From the IMG/VR virus record IMGVR_UViG_3300028844_007948, positions 99,425-163,424 of that record: DNA of 64,000 bases. One strand, written 5' to 3'. This stretch comes from a virus. The notes beneath the pieces were generated by a model that did no database searches, was not told where the DNA came from, and saw only the letters and a list, made by a program, of their open reading frames with translations. The position numbers and the translations under genes were made by a program. This document shows, in pieces, positions 13,710-55,938 of the stretch; the stretch's first letter is position 1; every line of letters begins with the position of its first letter.

Positions 13710-15230
13710 ATGCGTCTATATAATTATGAATTAGAACAGCACTTGTTGGGGGGGTTAATACAGAAGCCAGAAGAGTATTATAAAATATCATCTTTTATAT
13801 CTGAGAAGGATTTTTATTCGGATTCTACATCCATCCACAAAGCTATATTTATTGTTTTAAGGTCATCTATAGAAAAGAATGAATCTATAGATGAATACCT
13901 TTTATCTGAAAAGATAAAGTCATTAGGCTTATCTTTTGAAGAGGGGATTGAGCCCTTAGAGTATTTGCAAAGCTTAACTCTTAGAAAGGTTTCGGCTAAA
14001 TCTATAATGGACTCTGCGAAAGAGATTAAGACACTAACTCTTAAAAGGGACATTTCAGAAATTGGGGTTAATCTTCAATCCAGCATGACTAAATCTAGTC
14101 TTTCTTCCTACCAGGATATAATTGATAAGGCTGATTCTATATACAATAGTAAAATAAATTTTTATGAATCTGGTTCAGACATACCAGAAAATATTTATGA
14201 AAATATGGAGGACATGATTGAAGATAGGGGCGAAAACCCTGTAGATGATCATGGCTTAGAGGGGCCCCATCAAAGACTTCATGAAATATATGGATCTCTT
14301 CTTAGGCCTGGTAACATAAGTGTTATTGTTGCTAGATCTGGAATAGGCAAAACACAATTTTGCATGGACTTCTGCACAAAAGTTTCTTCTTTGAATAATA
14401 ATGTTCCTATTTTACACTTTGATAATGGAGAAATGAGCATTGAAGAGCTGACGATGCGTCAGTGTGCGGCTCTATCTGGAGTTCCCTTGAATTTACTTGA
14501 AAGCGGTCGCTGGAGGAATGCAGGTGATGAAGTTGTCAATAAAGTTAGAAAAGTTTGGAAAAACTTAAAAGGAATGAAATTCTTTTATTATAATTGTGGC
14601 GGCATGTCTATAGATGAAATGGTAAATACTGTTAAAAGATTTTATTATTCAAATGTAGGAAGAGGGAATGAGATGATTTTTAGTTTTGATTATATAAAAA
14701 CTACATTTCAACCTTCTGGAAACAAAACAGAGTGGCAGGTTGTTGGTGAAATGGTGGATAGATTTAAGCGGCTTATAGCTAAAGATTTAGTTTTTGATAA
14801 AAAGCCAGTTGTATCTATGCTAACAAGTGTACAAATGAATAGAGTTGGAACCAGTCGAAATAGAAGTTCTGAAAATATTATTGAAGATGAAACTGTAGTT
14901 TCTTTGTCGGATAGAATCACTCAGTTTTGTTCTCATATGTTTTTGTTGAGAAATAAAGAGCCTTCAGAAATTACAGAGGATTCGAACTTTGGAACGCATA
15001 AACTTACTAATATTAAAGCTCGGCACTTAGGTCAAGATCCAATGGGTGAAATCGAGCCAGTCAGAATGCCAGATGGATCTTTAAAAAGAAATTATTTGAA
15101 CTTAGATTTTAATAATTTTAATATAACAGAAAGGGGAGACTTAAGAGATTTAGTGGAGCACCTCAGGGTCGAAGGAATGTCCCCCTCAGAAGATGGTGAT
15201 AGTTCTTTACCAGATCTTTTCAATGAGTAA
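13710..15230 (+). CDS. dnaB: Replicative DnaB-type DNA helicase
   Basis: Hexameric 5'-3' helicase for the replication fork. The N-terminal domain opens with ELEQHLLGGLIQ, the usual DnaB start. The RecA-like ATPase has Walker A ARSGIGKT (208-215), the HFDNGEMS H1a region, the SFDYIKT Walker B strand, and a MLTSVQMNR sensor-type segment. The 506-aa length is normal for phage DnaB. It overlaps the primase start by 8 bp, as expected for a helicase-primase unit. Confidence 0.93.
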   Translation: MRLYNYELEQHLLGGLIQKPEEYYKISSFISEKDFYSDSTSIHKAIFIVLRSSIEKNESIDEYLLSEKIKSLGLSFEEGIEPLEYLQSLTLRKVSAKSIMDSAKEIKTLTLKRDISEIGVNLQSSMTKSSLSSYQDIIDKADSIYNSKINFYESGSDIPENIYENMEDMIEDRGENPVDDHGLEGPHQRLHEIYGSLLRPGNISVIVARSGIGKTQFCMDFCTKVSSLNNNVPILHFDNGEMSIEELTMRQCAALSGVPLNLLESGRWRNAGDEVVNKVRKVWKNLKGMKFFYYNCGGMSIDEMVNTVKRFYYSNVGRGNEMIFSFDYIKTTFQPSGNKTEWQVVGEMVDRFKRLIAKDLVFDKKPVVSMLTSVQMNRVGTSRNRSSENIIEDETVVSLSDRITQFCSHMFLLRNKEPSEITEDSNFGTHKLTNIKARHLGQDPMGEIEPVRMPDGSLKRNYLNLDFNNFNITERGDLRDLVEHLRVEGMSPSEDGDSSLPDLFNE

Positions 15231-30283: not shown

Positions 30284-30812
30284 AGAAATAAACAGAGATA
30301 GATTCCAAATAGTTTCAGCAGGTGGAAACGTAATGGAGTATAGTAAAGTCGATCAAGACTACCTGCCAAGAAATTGGCTTAGATTTAAAACTTTTGATGA
30401 ATTTAGAAAGTTTGTTAGGAGCAAAAAGTTTGAATCCATTTTTCTTTCTGATCAGCAAGAGGTTGTCTTAGTCACTCAAGATGAGACTGGCAATCTTTTA
30501 CATATGGGAATAGGTCCAGCATTTAAGGAAGAAGATGATATTCAAGAATTGATTTTTGAAACTCAAGCTGATGCAAGCAAATATGTCGCTGATAATAAGC
30601 TATTGCCATCCTCTTCGCTACTCGATGATCCATCTAAAGAGCAGTTACAGAGATTTTTCAATGGAGAAAAATGCTTTTTTGATAATTCTAGAGATCTTTA
30701 CGAGGAATATATTGAAAAAAAGAATTCAATAGAAGCTTCTGATCAATTAGCTCAACTTCTTCTCGGCAGAAAGTACGAACAAAAAGTCGTAGAAATTTTA
30801 ATGAAATACTGA
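30276..30812 (+). CDS. Unknown acidic protein in the replication operon
   Basis: 178 aa, overlapping the Clp stop by 8 bp. An N-terminal beta-rich half (VVLVTQDETGNLLHMGIGPA) is followed by helical acidic segments. No family recognised. Position between the Clp ATPase and the SSB-like gene suggests replication or proteolysis related work, for example as an adaptor; that is speculative. Confidence 0.65.
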   Translation: MTEEINRDRFQIVSAGGNVMEYSKVDQDYLPRNWLRFKTFDEFRKFVRSKKFESIFLSDQQEVVLVTQDETGNLLHMGIGPAFKEEDDIQELIFETQADASKYVADNKLLPSSSLLDDPSKEQLQRFFNGEKCFFDNSRDLYEEYIEKKNSIEASDQLAQLLLGRKYEQKVVEILMKY

Positions 30813-42977: not shown

Positions 42978-43884
42978 TAAAAATATAATTTTGTGCTTTA
43001 GGCATCAAGCATTATTTCAAGGCAGGACAATGTCAACATTTTGTGGGTTAGGAGATATATTAAAAAGCTTTGTTAATGTTTATATATTTTGCAAGCAAAA
43101 TGGAATTGGATTTTATTTAAATTTTGACCATCATTGCATTAAGAAATTTTTAAATTTTAAAAAATTTGATTTTACTAAAACTTTTAAAGACATAGAGGTT
43201 CCAAAGGTAGTAGATTTCGTTAGTGGTTCTAATTTTTATTCTTATTTATGTGAATCTAATGAAGAGAACATTTTTTTAATGACAGATGGTAACAATATAT
43301 CTAATTTCTCTTATGTAGAAAACCTTGAAGCTGATTTTAAAGAAGTTTTTTTAAGCAATGAAAAAATAGCCGACAATATTAAGAATCAATATTCGGAACC
43401 TTATAATGTTTTTCATGCTAGACTGGGAGACGGAAATATGGTATCAAAGGATTTCCTAGATGATTATTATCTAAGAGACTTCTCTCATCAATATTCTGCA
43501 TATGATTGGTACAATTCTATCGATTTTAACTTTTCTTACGATTTTTTGTATAAGAATTTTAGCGAAGAAATAGCTTCTTCTGATTTCATATGTTCAGACC
43601 ACCTTTCTTTTAAAAAATTTATTTCAGAAAGAAGCGAAGTCAGATATGTAGATTTTGAAACAGTGCATTTAGGGCTTAAAAATTCCATGAAAAATATAGA
43701 GAAAACTCTTTATGATTTTTACATTTTATATTATTGCGACAATGCTTTTTCTGTATCCCATTATCCTTTTGGAAAAAGAGCTAGTGGTTTTGCATACTGG
43801 ATAGATAAAATTTTTATAAAAGATTTTAAATATTTTTCTTTTGATTGGCTTTATCAAAATATAAAACCATTAAAAGTCTATTAA
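42970..43884 (+). CDS. Fucosyltransferase-superfamily-like protein
   Basis: 304 aa from the ATG overlapping the GT2 stop. FHARLGDG (H149, R151, G153, D154) resembles the HxRxGD donor motif shared by alpha-1,2/1,6-fucosyltransferases and O-FucT-type enzymes. SHYPFGKRASGFAYWI near 270 resembles their second conserved S/F..(K/R)..S.FA motif. GDP-fucose synthesis genes at 1908-3915 would supply the donor. The overlap with the convergent minus-strand gene is 15 bp. The call rests on two motifs only. Confidence 0.6.
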   Translation: MNNKNIILCFRHQALFQGRTMSTFCGLGDILKSFVNVYIFCKQNGIGFYLNFDHHCIKKFLNFKKFDFTKTFKDIEVPKVVDFVSGSNFYSYLCESNEENIFLMTDGNNISNFSYVENLEADFKEVFLSNEKIADNIKNQYSEPYNVFHARLGDGNMVSKDFLDDYYLRDFSHQYSAYDWYNSIDFNFSYDFLYKNFSEEIASSDFICSDHLSFKKFISERSEVRYVDFETVHLGLKNSMKNIEKTLYDFYILYYCDNAFSVSHYPFGKRASGFAYWIDKIFIKDFKYFSFDWLYQNIKPLKVY

Positions 43885-45015
43885 ATTTTTTCTTTTTAAG
43901 TGTCCTATTCTAGCCCTTAAAGAGTTTATTGATATGCCCATCATTTTAGATATTTCTTTTTGAGGTGTTTTATTTTTTAGCATTTTAGCTAATTTTTGGC
44001 TATCAATTTTAATTTGATTTCTAATCTTTTTTAATAAAGGATACCAACCTTGTTTCACACAAAGAGAAACTATTTGCTTATAGTTATATTTATTTCCAAA
44101 GAAATGTTCGCATAAATCTTTTGATGTGTATTTTTTAGGATTTAAAATTAGGATTTTTCCTATTTTATCTCTGTCTTTTTTTTCTATTGAGCATCTTGGG
44201 GTATTAAAAAAATCCTCGATTGCATTATTACCCTTCGTTACTTTATCGTAAGATTCATCTTTGAGGCTAAATCCATTAAAATGAGCTCTTACTTTATTTT
44301 TTATTTCTATAAAAGATGCGGATACTGCTTGTCTTGTTATGTTCAATTTAATTGCAATTTCATCGTGAGAAAATCCAGACTCTAAATATGCAAAAACTTT
44401 TCTTTGCTCATTCGTCAGTATAGATGAATAATCTTTTATTATTTTTAATATTTTTTTTTGTTTTTCTTTTTCGTCAAAATTATATCCAGCATCTTCAACA
44501 CCCTCTTTTTCCATTATAGCCTCATAAGTACTCTTAAGACCATTTTCTTCATCATAAACGGTTCCATCAACTCTTCTCTTAATATAAGATTTATTAATTA
44601 ATGTCCCTTGGCTCCATTTTATTAGATTTCTAGCATATATAAAAGCACAATGCTTAAAACTCTTTTGATTAAAAATTTTATTATTTTTGATGTATAAAAT
44701 TAAGTTATTTCTTTTTTTTAATAAAGATAAATTAATTTCGCTTGCCAATTCTTCTGCTGACAACAAATGAGTATTATATCTATATTTTGCTATTATCCTT
44801 TCGATGTCTTCCTGAAAATCTTCCAACCATATATTATATTTTTTTATTTGCAATTTCGTAGCCTTGAACTCCTTTTTTTCTAGCCTTTTTTGTGGAATTT
44901 TATATGAGCTTTTATCTACAGCTTCTGTTTTAAAAGTTTCTTTGCTTTTTGGTTTTCCATCTACATCAAAATAATCGTATAAAGTGCCTGGAATGTATGA
45001 TTTTTCTCTTTTCAT
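43870..45015 (-). CDS. Sigma-like HTH protein (copy 2) with extra C-terminal HTH
   Basis: 381 aa. About residues 65-140 recall sigma region 2 (LLSAEELASEINLSLL...FIYARNLIKW). About 201-245 is a region-4-type HTH (LTNEQRKVFAYLESGFSHDEIAIKLNITRQAVS). The last ~90 residues hold a further HTH (TPQKEISKMMGISINSL). It aligns collinearly with the 46029-46703 protein. The ATG overlaps the TGA reached only by the -1 frame of the upstream gene. Could be an alternative sigma factor or a related DNA-binding regulator of phage timing. Confidence 0.62.
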   Translation of the reverse strand: MKREKSYIPGTLYDYFDVDGKPKSKETFKTEAVDKSSYKIPQKRLEKKEFKATKLQIKKYNIWLEDFQEDIERIIAKYRYNTHLLSAEELASEINLSLLKKRNNLILYIKNNKIFNQKSFKHCAFIYARNLIKWSQGTLINKSYIKRRVDGTVYDEENGLKSTYEAIMEKEGVEDAGYNFDEKEKQKKILKIIKDYSSILTNEQRKVFAYLESGFSHDEIAIKLNITRQAVSASFIEIKNKVRAHFNGFSLKDESYDKVTKGNNAIEDFFNTPRCSIEKKDRDKIGKILILNPKKYTSKDLCEHFFGNKYNYKQIVSLCVKQGWYPLLKKIRNQIKIDSQKLAKMLKNKTPQKEISKMMGISINSLRARIGHLKRKNLIDF

Positions 45016-45247
45016 GGGTTAAACGGGGTTTTGAAAGGACTTGGGTATTCTTTTCTCCAATCCACTTCTCCTTTAGTTTCTCTCATCATTTTTTTAAGGT
45101 GAGAATATTTAATATTTAAAATCTTAGCGGCATCAGATCTTACATTGTTAGATTTGGCTAAAGCTTCTTTTATTCTTGGCTTCCAGTATTCTAACCTTTT
45201 ATTCCTTCTGGATAGCCCTGTGTTTTTTATATTTTCGTTTTTTTTTT
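45012..45247 (-). other. A10 slippery site and -1-frame 3' extension encoding a second HTH
   Basis: Coding-strand run of ten A (plus-strand T 45238-45247). Frame 0 stops 9 bases later. A -1 slip continues for 75 codons. The extension holds a second HTH (IKEALAKSNNVRSDAAKILN) followed by EVDWRKEYPSPF, parallel to GLDWWNKEYPYEK in frame 0. It stops at a TGA (45012-45014) that overlaps the ATG of the next gene as ATGA. The joined product would be 343 aa. Alternatives are a real frameshift mutation or a homopolymer sequencing error. Confidence 0.75.
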
Positions 45248-46042
45248 AATTTGTTCTTTTGTTAGATTGAAAGGTACAAATCCATTATCCATCATTCTTT
45301 TTATTACAACTTTTTGGGTCGCAGATCTCTCTTCTTTGGAAACTCTGGGCGGCGGATGTTTTTCATAAGGGTATTCTTTATTCCACCAATCAAGCCCGTT
45401 GATTCTTTTCATCAACTTGTATAATTGGGTTCTACCCATGTTTAGGTATTCAGCTGTCTTTTTTCTATTATTGCCTGATTTTATAAACCCCTCTATTATT
45501 CTTGATTTCGTTTGTGCCATTTCTTTTTTATCCCATTCAACCCATTCTGTACCATTCCATTTCTTACCAATCCTTTTTTCTATTGGTAAATGCTTTCCTT
45601 TTCTATGTAAAGTTGAATAGCTATTTGGACCAGACTTAAATCCAATAGTTTTTAAATGATTATAATTTGTTTTATTGAATCTATTGGTGTATCCATCAGG
45701 TCTTTTTATTTCGAATTTAAATATGTGGTCATTCTCATTTGGATATGCTGCTAATTTTATTTGATCCCAATTTGCAAAAGTTAATTTTTTATTTTCTATT
45801 TTATATCCAGAGTGAAACATAAACCCTTGAATTGATTTTATTTTTATTTTATCTTCTTGTAATCTGAGCTTTAATATTTTTTTTGCATTTTTATATGAAT
45901 TTGATTTTAAAAATGTTTTAAAATCTTTTTCTGATCCATCTTCATATACCTCTGTATACGCAATATTCCAATATTGGTCGAAAGGATAATCAGTTTTCCT
46001 AAAAACCTTTTGGCAGCATGTTTTTTTCCTACCCCTTTTCAC
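45227..46042 (-). CDS. YPNEN-family protein with Fis-type HTH (copy 2)
   Basis: 271 aa in frame 0. Residues ~20-105 form the family unit: FDQYWNIAYTEV, KTFLKS, IKSIQGFMFHS, FANWDQIKLAAYPNEN. About 150-175 holds KWNGTEWVEWDKK. About 185-225 is a Fis/HTH_8-type helix-turn-helix (IKSGNNRKKTAEYLNMGRTQ). It then ends just after an A10 run. Overlaps the upstream sigma-like gene by 14 bp. The family unit recurs at 46700-47311 and 54533-55045. I do not recognise the family. The frame-shifted extension is listed separately. Confidence 0.65.
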   Translation of the reverse strand: MKRGRKKTCCQKVFRKTDYPFDQYWNIAYTEVYEDGSEKDFKTFLKSNSYKNAKKILKLRLQEDKIKIKSIQGFMFHSGYKIENKKLTFANWDQIKLAAYPNENDHIFKFEIKRPDGYTNRFNKTNYNHLKTIGFKSGPNSYSTLHRKGKHLPIEKRIGKKWNGTEWVEWDKKEMAQTKSRIIEGFIKSGNNRKKTAEYLNMGRTQLYKLMKRINGLDWWNKEYPYEKHPPPRVSKEERSATQKVVIKRMMDNGFVPFNLTKEQIKKKTKI

Positions 46043-46703
46043 TTTGAAATAATCTCTCCATAGATTTATAACCTTCTGAAATTTTCTCCCAACATTCGTC
46101 GTTTAAGAAATTATTCTTAATTCTACATTTTAATTTTTCCTCTAACCTTATGACGTTAAAACTTATCGCCTGATGAGTTACTCCCATTTCTTTAGCCATA
46201 TCTTTTTGCTTTTTTCCTTGTAGTAGCATGTCAATTAACTGAACTTCATTTTTAGTCAAATGGTCCGAGTAATTTTTAATTAATTTTAAAAAATATTTAT
46301 GTTTTTGGTTTTTGTCAAAATCGAAGTCATGATTAACCCCCTCAGTATATTCCATCATTTCAAATGAACTTTTCTCCCCCTCTCTTGTTTTGATGACACA
46401 ATCCAATCTCCTTGAATTATATTTATCCTCAACTTTTCTGCACTGATACCAGACAACAGCATTTTTTATAAAACTACAAATTTGGAACCTAAAACATTCA
46501 AAATTGAACTCATCAAACATATCGTTTCTAAAGTTTATAATCTTATCTTTTCTCTTTAAAATGTTGAAGTTTAAATCACTAGCGATTTCTTCAACACTCA
46601 TTAAGTGGTTATCTCTTCTCTTTGACCCTATTATTCTCATTATATCAGGTTGAAATTCTGATAAATATTTGTAAAACTTTTCTTCTTCTTCTTCTTTATT
46701 CAT
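46029..46703 (-). CDS. Sigma-like HTH protein (copy 1)
   Basis: 224 aa, Glu-rich start. Matches the 43870-45015 protein along its length: MSVEEIASDLNFNILKRKD (vs LSAEELASEINLSLLKKRN), FDFDKNQKHKYFLKLIKNYS (vs NFDEKEKQKKILKIIKDYS), and the HTH LTKNEVQLIDMLLQGKKQKDMAKEMGVTHQAIS. The stop and start overlap upstream as ATGA. Region-2/region-4-like arrangement suggests a sigma factor, but no canonical -10-recognition residues can be confirmed by eye. Confidence 0.62.
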   Translation of the reverse strand: MNKEEEEEKFYKYLSEFQPDIMRIIGSKRRDNHLMSVEEIASDLNFNILKRKDKIINFRNDMFDEFNFECFRFQICSFIKNAVVWYQCRKVEDKYNSRRLDCVIKTREGEKSSFEMMEYTEGVNHDFDFDKNQKHKYFLKLIKNYSDHLTKNEVQLIDMLLQGKKQKDMAKEMGVTHQAISFNVIRLEEKLKCRIKNNFLNDECWEKISEGYKSMERLFQSEKG

Positions 46704-47311
46704 ACTAAATTTTTTAATTTTTCTTGGTTTTTCTTGAATGCTTGTTCTGCTAATAGATGGTTAATTTTATACTTGAATAAGTAATTATTTTCATTAGGAA
46801 AGCTGCAGTTTCTAATATTGTACCAATCTTCTATGGACAATCTAGCTCCATCTTTTTGCAAAAAACTAGAATGAAACATGAACCCTTGAATTGATTTTAT
46901 TTGAGAACAATCAGAGTCTTCGTTGAATTTTTCTTCCAATATTCTTTTTGCGAACATTAAAGATCTCGCCTTAATCACTGAAATGTATTTAGTTTCAGAT
47001 TTATCTAAATTTACCACTTCGTAGTACATCTTCCAATATTGGTCGTAACCAAATTTTTTATTTTTAAATTTATTTTGCATATTTATTTTTTTCTTTTTGG
47101 TAAAGCATTTCCTGCATCCCTTCGTTGCCTCTGGCGTGTTTTTGCATGTTCTTAAGTGTTCTCTGGGTAATATAAAGAAATCCCCATGAGTTTTGCATTT
47201 TAATTTTACTTTTGTTTGATTGTTAATATAGACTATGTCATCATAATTGTATCTATCTCCATGAATACTTATAGCTTGTTTAATAAATTCTTCTCTAGTT
47301 TTTTTTTTCAT
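46700..47311 (-). CDS. YPNEN-family protein with N-terminal zinc-binding domain (copy 1)
   Basis: 203 aa. Residues 1-75: F..QA..IHGDRYNYDDIVYIN, LKCKTHGDFFILP, and GCRKCF. This is the HG-Y-Y / C-THG / CxxC pattern of the DUF723-like domain found in homing-endonuclease-associated proteins. Residues ~85-185 are the family unit: YDQYWKMYYEVV, IKSIQGFMFHSSF, SIEDWYNIRNCSFPNENNY. No C-terminal HTH. ATGA-coupled to the sigma-like gene downstream and to the membrane protein upstream. Confidence 0.62.
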   Translation of the reverse strand: MKKKTREEFIKQAISIHGDRYNYDDIVYINNQTKVKLKCKTHGDFFILPREHLRTCKNTPEATKGCRKCFTKKKKINMQNKFKNKKFGYDQYWKMYYEVVNLDKSETKYISVIKARSLMFAKRILEEKFNEDSDCSQIKSIQGFMFHSSFLQKDGARLSIEDWYNIRNCSFPNENNYLFKYKINHLLAEQAFKKNQEKLKNLV

Positions 47312-47544
47312 TCTTTTTTGTCAACTTTTTTATCGACTCTTTTTCTGAATAAAATATTATTCTCATATTCGCCCACAGACCTTCCAATCTTAAAAGAAAA
47401 CTTGTCTATGAATATTATTAATCCCACTATAACATATAGAAAATAATTTGTCAACTCTATATTTAATACTAAAAGATATATTAATAATCCATAAGGTAAA
47501 AATTTATTTACTAAATATTCTAACATTGCTTGATTATTACTCAT
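47308..47544 (-). CDS. Small membrane protein after the ECF sigma factor
   Basis: 78 aa from the ATG that follows GGGAGG by 8 bases (a longer reading from 47592 overlaps the sigma gene). Two hydrophobic segments (LLIYLLVLNIELTNYFLYVI, continuing to IVGLIIFI) precede a basic tail (KRVDKKVDKKE). ECF sigma genes are often followed by membrane anti-sigma factors, so an anti-sigma-like role is possible, but its size and sequence give no proof. Confidence 0.6.
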   Translation of the reverse strand: MSNNQAMLEYLVNKFLPYGLLIYLLVLNIELTNYFLYVIVGLIIFIDKFSFKIGRSVGEYENNILFRKRVDKKVDKKE

Positions 47545-48115
47545 TTTCGAACCTCCCATAAACTTCATATTGGTTAATTTTTCTTTTTGCACATTTTGTT
47601 AAGGCTTGTCTCATCCTGTGCATTGTGGATGAAACAGCTCCGATACTTCTTCCTGTTATTTTTGATATTTCTTTCATTGTTTTCTCTTCTTTATACCACA
47701 ATTTTGCTATTATAGCCATTTGTTCTGGTAATGTTTCATAGCATAAGCTTAAAGCTTTAGATTCTAAATCAAGGTCTTGTTTAGACATGTTTTTGGATTG
47801 ATCCATCATATCCTCTAAAAATTCACTATTAAATGACAATTTATTCCTTTTTGATTTTTGCAAAAATGCCATTATTTGAAATCTCGCTATTCTAAAAGCC
47901 CATGTTTTTAATCCTCCTTTTTTGGGGTCAAACTCTTTTTTCTTCTTGCAAACAATTAAATTTGTTTCTTGTAAAACGTCTAAAGCATTTGGTTTTGATA
48001 TTAAAATAGAAAAAATAAATGAAAATAAATTCTTTTGTATTCTTTCTAATTCGAAATCGAAATCAAAATTATCATCAACCTTTTTCTGTTTATTCTTTTT
48101 TAAAGCTTTTATCAT
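47537..48115 (-). CDS. ECF-type sigma-70 factor, Rhodopirellula/Verrucomicrobium-like
   Basis: 192 aa. Region 2: LFSFIFSILISKPNALDVLQ, ETNLIVCKKKKEFDP, and LKTWAFRIARFQIMAFLQKS. The phrase DVLQETN..(L/V)..K..EFDP is characteristic of sigma factors abundant in Planctomycetes and Verrucomicrobia. Region 4: ALSLCYETLPEQMAIIAKLW and ISKITGRSIGAVSSTMHRM, with Cys before the LP as in that family. It could direct host polymerase to late phage promoters and gives the best host clue in the window. Confidence 0.85.
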   Translation of the reverse strand: MIKALKKNKQKKVDDNFDFDFELERIQKNLFSFIFSILISKPNALDVLQETNLIVCKKKKEFDPKKGGLKTWAFRIARFQIMAFLQKSKRNKLSFNSEFLEDMMDQSKNMSKQDLDLESKALSLCYETLPEQMAIIAKLWYKEEKTMKEISKITGRSIGAVSSTMHRMRQALTKCAKRKINQYEVYGRFENE

Positions 48116-48347
48116 TTATGAATAGTCTATCCTCCCATTTCTGGGAGTAAGGGTTAAATTTTTCTATAGAAATGTCTTGAGCACACAACCTGCGCCTTAA
48201 AAGCATTGATTTGTGGGCTCTTAGAGCTTCGCTTGCACTTTTAGCCATAAAATAATGGTAACTATCTTGGGCAATATGATCTTGGCCAGCGTTGTATCTT
48301 ACCCTATATTCAAATAACTTGTATTCTTTATACTTTTTATTCTTCAT
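48090..48347 (-). CDS. Small basic protein, unknown
   Basis: 85 aa from the ATG that has GGAAAGGGA upstream (in-frame starts to 48398 exist but run into the acidic ORF). YRVRYNAGQDH, DSYHYFMAKSASEALRAHKS and ISIEKFNPY give a strand-strand-helix-strand outline. This loosely recalls the YPNEN unit (Y.V.Y..., ..KTFLKS, helix, I.SI), but too weakly to assign. Overlaps the ECF gene start by 26 bp. Confidence 0.55.
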   Translation of the reverse strand: MKNKKYKEYKLFEYRVRYNAGQDHIAQDSYHYFMAKSASEALRAHKSMLLRRRLCAQDISIEKFNPYSQKWEDRLFINDKSFKKE

Positions 48348-48516
48348 TCCCTTTCCAATATATATCATCAAATAAAATAAATTTAATTTCATCTTCAAAT
48401 TCTACATCAACCCCTACAGGGTCACCTTCTACGACAGGCATATCAGAATCTTTGTAAAAAAATTCTTCTTCTTCTGAAGCTTTTACTAATTGACAGGACA
48501 TTGATTCTATATTCAT
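48337..48516 (-). CDS. Small acidic protein
   Basis: 59 aa, strongly acidic (SEEEEFFYKDSD, VDVEFEDE). It links two neighbouring genes: its ATG overlaps the upstream stop as ATGA and its TAA lies within the first codons of the downstream gene. The tight coupling on both sides supports translation. No family; acidic micro-proteins in phages often bind host DNA-binding proteins, which is speculative here. Confidence 0.55.
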   Translation of the reverse strand: MNIESMSCQLVKASEEEEFFYKDSDMPVVEGDPVGVDVEFEDEIKFILFDDIYWKGNEE

Positions 48517-54532: not shown

Positions 54533-55045
54533 ATGGATTATTCAGAAAAATATCTATTTATAGTGTATTATACAATATATGTAGATAAGTCCAGAGACTA
54601 CAAAACTTTTATAAAATCTAAAGATAGGGATTCAGCTAAAGATGTTTTTACAAAAAAAATCAAAAAAGATTGCAAGGGGCTTTTAATTAAAAATTTGAGG
54701 ATTGTAAAAGTCAACAGAAGTAAATACAGAGGAGTTTCAATATCAGATAAGCAATGGGAGTCCTTAAAAAAAATATCTTACCCTAATTCAAAACATGTAT
54801 TATCAAAATTACCTAAAGATTGTTGGTTCAGAAGACCTGTTTCTAAAAACAGAAATGCAGATGGAACATTTAAGATGGGTAATACTCCTTGGAATAAAAA
54901 TTTTAAAATTAAATTTATTAAAAAAAATAAAAAAGGATGTTTTTCAAGACCTAGAGATGGTATGGGCAGGTTCAGAAAAGGCTGTAAGTGTTTAATGGTT
55001 GGTGTTAAAGATGAAACCTTTAAAAAATTACATTCAAAAAAATAG
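54533..55045 (+). CDS. YPNEN-family protein with NUMOD-like tail (third copy)
   Basis: 170 aa, basic. Residues 8-100: FIVYYTIYVDKSRDYKTFIK, DSAKDVFTKKIKKD, IKNLRIVKV, and SDKQWESLKKISYPNSKHVL. This matches the unit in the 45227 and 46700 proteins (YT.V..DGS..DFKTFLKS; W..IK..AYPNEN). The C-terminal half has DGTFKMGNTPWNK and FSRPRDGMGRFRKG, like NUMOD3-type DNA-binding modules of homing endonucleases. An HNH gene follows two genes downstream. DNA binding is a reasonable inference. Confidence 0.55.
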   Translation: MDYSEKYLFIVYYTIYVDKSRDYKTFIKSKDRDSAKDVFTKKIKKDCKGLLIKNLRIVKVNRSKYRGVSISDKQWESLKKISYPNSKHVLSKLPKDCWFRRPVSKNRNADGTFKMGNTPWNKNFKIKFIKKNKKGCFSRPRDGMGRFRKGCKCLMVGVKDETFKKLHSKK

Positions 55046-55400
55046 CTATAAATCTATATTCAATAAAATATATTCAAATTTTTTAAGCCAAGACTACAAA
55101 GAAGATGAAGTTATTAAATTTTCTTTATCTTTTAGAATTTTTTATGAAAAATATAAAAATTTCGAAAAAAAAGTTCAAACTTCTATTTGGGTTGAAAAAA
55201 ACGAGCATAATTTAATTGAAATTTCTTATGGCAAAAAGTATAATATGTTCAAGGTTCGTAAACCTCTGGAAGGAAAATTTTCAGAAGACTATGTATTCTC
55301 AGAAATAATAAATAAAGACAAATTATCTCAAGATATTATTTATTGCTTAATAATCATTAAAATTATTAGTTTATTAGATGAGAAAAAAAAACAACACTAG
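55011..55400 (+). CDS. Unknown basic protein
   Basis: 129 aa from the ATG (TTG 4 codons upstream possible). Helical, Lys/Ile/Tyr-rich. Overlaps the upstream gene by 35 bp and the HNH gene downstream by 23 bp, which ties the three genes together. No family recognised. Confidence 0.5.
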   Translation: MKPLKNYIQKNSYKSIFNKIYSNFLSQDYKEDEVIKFSLSFRIFYEKYKNFEKKVQTSIWVEKNEHNLIEISYGKKYNMFKVRKPLEGKFSEDYVFSEIINKDKLSQDIIYCLIIIKIISLLDEKKKQH

Positions 55401-55938
55401 AAGGAAAGAAAAAATTTTACTTTTAAGGTCTGAAGGTAAAAGCTATAATGAAATACGAGATATTCTAGGTTGTTCAAAATCTGTTATTTCTTATCATTGC
55501 GGAGAGTATCAAACGGAAAAAAAACGAGTACTAAATCGGAACAAAAGCAAAGACCACAAGTTATCCAGAAAAATAGGAGCATTTAAAAGCAGGATAGCTA
55601 AGGATGGATTCAGAGCGAAATTAAAAACATTTAAGCGTAGAAATCCCAAAAACAGAACTCATACTATTGTTAATAATATTTCTAAAAACTTTACAACAAA
55701 GGATGTTATTGATAAATTAGGTGATGAGCCTAAATGCTATCTTACTGGAACTCCGATAAATCTTCACAATACCGAAACTTATCATTTTGACCATATAATA
55801 CCTACTTCAAAAGGTGGAACTAATGATCTTTCCAATCTTGGTATATGTATCAAAGAAGCTAACAGAGCTAAAGACGATCTTTCCATAAAAGAGCTTATAT
55901 TTCTTTGTCAAAAAATTTTAAATCATTTAACTAAATAA
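55378..55938 (+). CDS. HNH endonuclease with N-terminal HTH
   Basis: 186 aa. An N-terminal HTH (EGKSYNEIRDILGCSKSVIS) precedes a basic linker. About residues 120-165 carry the HNH core: CYLTGTPIN, FDHIIPTSKGGTNDLSN, and NRAKDDLS. The H-N-H-type residues are present. Likely a freestanding homing-type nuclease. It follows a YPNEN/NUMOD-like gene, which may be part of the same mobile unit. Confidence 0.82.
   Translation: MRKKNNTRRKEKILLLRSEGKSYNEIRDILGCSKSVISYHCGEYQTEKKRVLNRNKSKDHKLSRKIGAFKSRIAKDGFRAKLKTFKRRNPKNRTHTIVNNISKNFTTKDVIDKLGDEPKCYLTGTPINLHNTETYHFDHIIPTSKGGTNDLSNLGICIKEANRAKDDLSIKELIFLCQKILNHLTK

Follow-up and report, generated by a model that had tools for sequence, protein, structure and literature searches.

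Phages are known to encode sigma factors of their own, such as gp28 and gp34 of SPO1 (PMC9429907) and gp47 of the phiEco32-like phage 7-11 (PMC8948821), and several may occur in one genome, with three encoded by SP10, like SPO1 (PMC9429907). Late transcription of T4 involves the sigma-like gp55, the co-activator gp33, and gp45 (PMC2988020), and in SigO-RsoA two adjacent genes jointly form one initiation factor whose sigma domains are split over two proteins (PMC8103513). Here we analyze a window of 64,000 nucleotides (nt) from a large uncultivated phage, corresponding to bases 99425-163424 of the 163,424-base IMG/VR record IMGVR_UViG_3300028844_007948. It carries two copies of a two-gene unit, in which a gene for a YPNEN-domain protein (YPNEN1 or YPNEN2) is followed by a gene for a divergent sigma-like protein (sigma-like 1 or sigma-like 2; Table 1).

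The unit resembles each of these systems in part. As with the sigma factors of SPO1 and 7-11, the phage would supply a promoter-selectivity subunit for the control of gene classes, but here the sigma factor resembles those of the extracytoplasmic function (ECF) type and is highly divergent, it is always accompanied by a YPNEN partner, the pair is duplicated, and one genome has five sigma-70-family candidates. As with T4 gp55 and gp33, a small phage sigma factor and a dedicated phage co-factor would act on host RNA polymerase, but both sigma-like proteins contain region 4 besides region 2, and no connection of YPNEN to gp33 in sequence or fold was found, the domain having no match in PHROG, Pfam, or the PDB and no significant one by Foldseek. 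As in SigO-RsoA, two adjacent genes may jointly form one initiation factor, whereas both sigma domains lie in the sigma-like protein and YPNEN has no sigma domain, so that regions 2 and 4 are not on separate polypeptides. The YPNEN-sigma unit belongs to neither the T4 gp55/gp33 nor the SigO-RsoA system.

All four open reading frames (ORFs) named by the original prediction are present on the minus strand where it had placed them. Sigma-like 1 and sigma-like 2 are paralogs (32% identity over 217 amino acids (aa), E=2e-34), as are YPNEN1 and YPNEN2 (38% identity over 111 aa, E=4e-21), both relationships being far above chance, and the profile similarity between the two pairs, on which the original prediction hinged, is present. 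Relatives were collected by profile scans with the YPNEN domain, which returned viral contigs as well as a contig assigned by binning to a Halobacteriovorax metagenome-assembled genome; all of them are metagenomic. With contigs near-identical to the window left out, the sample comprises 20 distinct genomes carrying the unit, the window included. The binned contig (L032, PBIO01000024.1) is phage-like and bears the module, and its placement is either a weak hint of the host or a misbinning.

In all 27 complete pairs and all 20 genomes, the sigma-like gene is immediately preceded by a YPNEN gene. The two genes mostly overlap by 1-50 nt and are otherwise at most 26 nt apart, with an alternative start codon used for pair 2 of L018 and distances in the two slip-site genes described below taken from the stop of the -1 frame. 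Scans seeded with sigma alignments (run from two split alignments; one broad sigma alignment held no scannable stretch) returned only contigs already known from the YPNEN scans. Whole-record searches found two pairs per genome in the lineage of the window (8 genomes) and one pair elsewhere, and because the single-pair records include those of 195, 200, and 206 kb, the single copies are not merely contig ends. Maximum-likelihood trees were built for the YPNEN and the sigma domain; in both, all pair-1 members form one clade (support 100/99 and 100/98), and pair 2 and the single-copy members are not cleanly separated in either tree. The monophyly of pair 1 in both trees indicates that the YPNEN-sigma pair was duplicated as one unit in this virus's lineage. 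Pair 1 consists of a small YPNEN protein without a recognized helix-turn-helix (HTH) and a plain sigma, and pair 2 of a YPNEN protein with one or two Fis-type HTHs and a sigma with a C-terminal HTH extension. Congruent trees, full linkage in the 20 genomes, and these differing domain additions bear out the proposal of a duplicated and diversified regulator-partner pair.

Table 1. Features of the YPNEN-sigma region and related loci, in window coordinates unless the record is named
Feature	Coordinates	Strand	Description
YPNEN1	46700..47311	-	203 aa, pair 1 partner; Cys/His-rich endonuclease-type N-terminus, then YPNEN domain at about residues 70-203
Sigma-like 1	46029..46703	-	224 aa, putative divergent ECF-type sigma factor with regions 2 and 4; ATGA-coupled to YPNEN1
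YPNEN2	45012..46042	-	Pair 2 partner; 271 aa in frame 0 (46042-45227), about 343 aa with the -1 frame
A10 slip site	45238..45247	-	Ten A when read on the coding strand; slippage of transcription or -1 ribosomal frameshifting predicted here
Sigma-like 2	43870..45015	-	381 aa, putative divergent ECF-type sigma factor; N-terminal extension and extra C-terminal HTH
YPNEN3	54533..55045	+	Third, divergent YPNEN-domain protein; no adjoining sigma gene; near HNH endonuclease gene 55378-55938
Canonical ECF sigma factor	47537..48115	-	192 aa, upstream of the module; Sigma70_r2 E=1.8e-10, TIGR02937 74 bits, TIGR02989 E=3.7e-30
Small protein	47308..47592	-	94 aa, two hydrophobic segments (hydrophobicity judged by eye), directly upstream of YPNEN1
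Sigma candidate	Record 13842-14564 (L027:13842-14564)		TIGR02937 37 bits; Pfam region 2 above cut-off
Sigma candidate	Record 81475-82044 (L031:1475-2044)		TIGR02937 30 bits

The ECF sigma superfamily profile TIGR02937 aligns with both sigma-like proteins across regions 2 to 4, covering residues 12-191 of sigma-like 1 (profile positions 6-162 of 165, 23.3 bits) and residues 64-243 of sigma-like 2 (positions 6-162 of 165, 34.0 bits), in both cases below the cut-off of 42.9. Region 4 of sigma-like 2 matches Sigma70_r4_2 above the cut-off (E=5.7e-8), and the protein has an HTH_24 match at residues 349-379. The region-4 HTH of sigma-like 1 matches only GerE (8.5e-6) and r4_2 (0.14). An AlphaFold2 model of sigma-like 1 has a mean predicted local distance difference test score (pLDDT) of 78.7, the alignments used as input for this and the YPNEN model being shallow (21-24 rows). 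In a Foldseek search of the PDB, the top matches of this model are nearly all sigma factors and extend across both domains (best E=3.3e-3), with low global template modeling scores that leave the relative placement of the domains uncertain. On profile and model, sigma-like 1 and 2 are best called divergent ECF-type sigma factors that fall short of the curated score for membership, and their original label, sigma-like, can be raised to an ECF-type sigma-70 fold on the TIGR02937 alignments and Foldseek matches. Defence-system models gave just weak HTH matches from the sigma-like proteins, and sigma-like 2 has no relative in 50,697 annotated phage records.

The partner domain is recognized in YPNEN1 by the YPNEN hidden Markov model with E=1.5e-50 and has no match in Pfam, PHROGs, or NCBIfam; no relatives of YPNEN2, YPNEN3, or a single-copy YPNEN protein (L014) were found in the same 50,697 records. 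Its AlphaFold2 model is confident (pLDDT 86.3) and predicts a beta-beta-alpha-beta arrangement plus a helix. Foldseek hints for this core to YkzG, an RNA polymerase interacting protein, and to phage polymerase inhibitors had E-values of about 0.1-1.5 and were not used. The N-terminus of YPNEN1 matches the phage endonuclease profile phrog_681 (E=4.5e-9) and phrog_4605 (1.1e-7). The DUF723-like zinc domain once proposed for this protein is retained as an endonuclease-type domain on these PHROG matches and is given up as DUF723, for which Pfam gave no match at E<=5 in the full protein or at E<=1 in the N-terminus alone. The pair-1 YPNEN orthologs in the 7 other genomes are 131-145 aa long and do not have the Cys/His-rich N-terminus, a domain unique to this virus. 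YPNEN3, which the original prediction did not include, is supported as a homolog by hhalign (96.9%, E=1.3e-10), where the highest value among 40 column-shuffled controls was 2.3%, and its neighborhood is the same in L002. A YPNEN-HNH endonuclease fusion in other genomes, hinted at by the length of phrog_6050, was not supported; the closest HNH relatives with an annotation come from phages Weasels2 and Gundel_1 and are tRNA-associated, stand-alone proteins.

The frame-0 ORF of YPNEN2 ends shortly after the A10 run, and it is probably a truncated reading of a gene whose real product reaches 343 aa with two Fis-type HTHs. In the -1 frame, 75 further codons with a Fis-type HTH follow the run in both the window and L019. 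The Pfam family HTH_8 (PF02954, cut-off 22 bits) matches YPNEN2 above the cut-off in frame 0 (E=1.2e-5, 25.3 bits) and again in the -1 frame (E=1.6e-5, 24.9 bits), and it matches the -1 frame of L019 with E=6.4e-4. Frame 0 thus contains one Fis-type HTH, and the second lies in the -1 frame. A correction applies to the ATGA or overlap coupling claimed for the whole array. It is seen at 46700/46703 between YPNEN1 and sigma-like 1 (ATGA, 4-nt overlap) and at 46029/46042 between sigma-like 1 and YPNEN2 (14-nt overlap), but the frame-0 stop of YPNEN2 leaves a gap of 211 nt before sigma-like 2, and coupling is obtained there only through the -1 frame, whose stop overlaps the sigma gene start as ATGA in the window (stop at 45012, gap -4) and as TAATG in L019.

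The frameshift could also reflect a decaying gene or an assembly error, with the truncated protein a damaged one, a sub-claim that is compatible with any of the readings weighed below. Homopolymers are prone to mutation, both HTHs are encoded in a single frame without an A10 run in six relatives (L002, L008, L009, L011, L013, and L018; the two HTH_8 matches in one frame of L008 have E=9.4e-11), and the site is patchy on the tree, present in the window and L019 and not in L008 or L009, which means either two gains or intervening losses. However, the run occurs at an identical position and phase in L019/L020 (L019:6799-6808), where the YPNEN2 domain is 58% identical, and it is found as well in a near-identical contig from a different IMG/VR metagenome. 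The -1 frame is open and conserved between the window and L019, with 41 of 75 residues identical, a comparison score of 203 (shuffled controls, <=28), and differences by codon position of 26/17/38, the third position changing most; the other frames are full of stops. Only this frame restores the stop-start overlap, and we consider decay or error very unlikely.

The slip site is conserved between divergent homologs together with the downstream frame, but in two lineages only, and programmed recoding is probable from these sequence comparisons. Two products are likely, one of 271 aa with a single HTH and one of 343 aa with both. A downstream RNA structure was considered as a frameshift stimulator and rejected (z=-3.8 in the window, absent in L019), and because it is absent in L019, transcriptional slippage is the preferred mechanism. 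In bacteria, runs of nine As are established sites of slippage (PMC5009743). The arrangement recalls the recoding of dnaX into tau and gamma (reviewed in PMC5009743), in that a slip site yields two products of one gene, one of them without C-terminal domains, but in YPNEN2 it is the long product, with the second HTH and the coupling to the next gene, that requires the predicted shift. Only two A10 runs lie within genes in the 163 kb; the other is located at 47299-47308, right behind the start codon of YPNEN1 (ATG AAA AAA AAA A).

Given that gene order and overlap are conserved, that the genes were duplicated jointly, and that DNA-binding tails occur, we favor a sigma factor and a dedicated partner acting jointly on host RNA polymerase. 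In this view, a sigma factor of the phage and a DNA-binding co-factor dedicated to it would form a pair that was duplicated and has diversified, and each copy would serve as a two-part promoter-selectivity factor, an interpretation to which we give an even chance or slightly better. The downstream gene would encode the ECF-type sigma factor, and the upstream, translationally coupled gene would encode the YPNEN partner, which may bind its sigma through the beta-beta-alpha-beta domain and help to position it on phage promoters, through direct contact with DNA in those proteins that have Fis-type HTHs. Copy 1 would have lost, or never had, the HTH tail, and copy 2 would combine a partner that has one HTH as the frame-0 product and two as the slip product with a sigma carrying the extra C-terminal HTH. 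The copies probably differ in the promoter classes that they serve, and they may act on different gene classes at different times. No RNA polymerase beta subunit (PF00562) was found in the record, in a search whose positive control succeeded in 14/14 genomes.

Adjacent, coupled genes for small partners are the classic layout of ECF sigma/anti-sigma operons, and the linkage here is complete; the main rival explanation is that YPNEN proteins are anti-sigma or sigma-holding factors, which would keep the sigma encoded downstream sequestered until a given stage of infection, when it is released. The pair-1 partners of the relatives, being small and without recognized HTHs, would fit such a role. 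Classical anti-sigma genes, however, usually lie downstream of the sigma gene, whereas YPNEN is always upstream; the one or two Fis-type HTHs of pair-2 YPNEN proteins are unneeded for sequestration; and no known anti-sigma family is among the Pfam, PHROG, and NCBIfam matches. The HTHs and the gene order make this role less favored, and we regard it as unlikely. To a similar degree we doubt that YPNEN proteins share the operon without acting via sigma, whether as DNA-binding regulators in their own right or as targeting proteins derived from nucleases. The nuclease-type N-terminal domain of YPNEN1, the location of YPNEN3 near an HNH endonuclease gene, and the generic nature of Fis-type HTHs are consistent with independence, but linkage to sigma in 20 genomes, with sigma identity down to about 30%, and the duplication of both genes together would be difficult to account for if the two were not functionally coupled.

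Several observations weigh against a two-part sigma and co-factor system. Both sigma-like proteins score under the TIGR02937 cut-off, and neither has a Pfam region-2 match of its own. The pair-1 YPNEN proteins of relatives have no recognized DNA-binding domain, YPNEN3 shows that a homolog exists without a sigma neighbor, and no fold match to YPNEN at E<1e-3 was found by Foldseek among PDB or BFVD structures, which leaves the binding target of the domain without an independent pointer. The 163,424-base record may be a fragment, and a search for single-subunit RNA polymerases was uninformative, its control being silent. In a promoter-motif search, TATAATA was enriched but strand-symmetric, and GTGTA[AT] was oriented and enriched in G000 (12 vs 2.8) and G011 (19 vs 4.9), weak in G012 (6 vs 3.3), and absent in G003 (3 vs 2.1); this candidate promoter element is post hoc and clear in one of three relatives. 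Oriented GTGTAAT/GTGTATA sequences are seen in intergenic regions upstream of several large, probably structural genes, for example upstream of record positions 30725, 32817, and 43288.

Beyond the duplicated unit, the genome has further sigma-70-family candidates. The canonical ECF sigma factor upstream of the module and two sigma-like genes elsewhere in the record were absent from the original prediction, and together with the genes of the two pairs they bring the candidates to five, a number that fits staged transcription. Located close to the terminase, the 240-aa candidate carries a Cys-rich insertion that separates regions 2 and 4, and region-2 matches are found in similar-sized ORFs of large related records; these observations suggest a late sigma factor. 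An ORF at 48090-48398 encodes a small conserved protein (EYR[VI]KYNA...NPYS.KWE) that lies directly upstream of the canonical ECF sigma gene in several relatives and has no family match. With a similar-looking strand-helix-strand pattern, it was considered as a further YPNEN partner, but its hhalign value of 0.1% did not exceed what shuffled columns gave, and the idea was rejected. Equivalents of the small protein upstream of YPNEN1, ending GRSVGEYENN..., lie directly 5' of a YPNEN gene in at least seven relatives (L008, L009, L011, L016, L018, L019, and L026), and the protein might act on the module as a membrane anchor or as a regulator.

Only a few model phages are known to combine a sigma factor of their own with a dedicated co-factor. 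New here is a partner family tied to a divergent sigma over 20 uncultivated phage genomes, duplicated as a unit and possibly controlled by recoding, as well as a single phage with five sigma-70-family candidates. More tentatively, and with doubts that outweigh our confidence, the unit may represent a new architecture of initiation factor, in which the promoter choice of an ECF-type sigma would depend on an obligate, co-translated partner of an undescribed domain family, duplicated into two orthogonal sets in one phage, and programmed slippage would set how much one-HTH relative to two-HTH partner is made and hence promoter strength or choice. Since the pairs are small and self-contained, the idea of a sigma handing promoter recognition to a dedicated partner is directly testable, and orthogonal sigma-partner sets, if they prove to be such, would be useful as tools.

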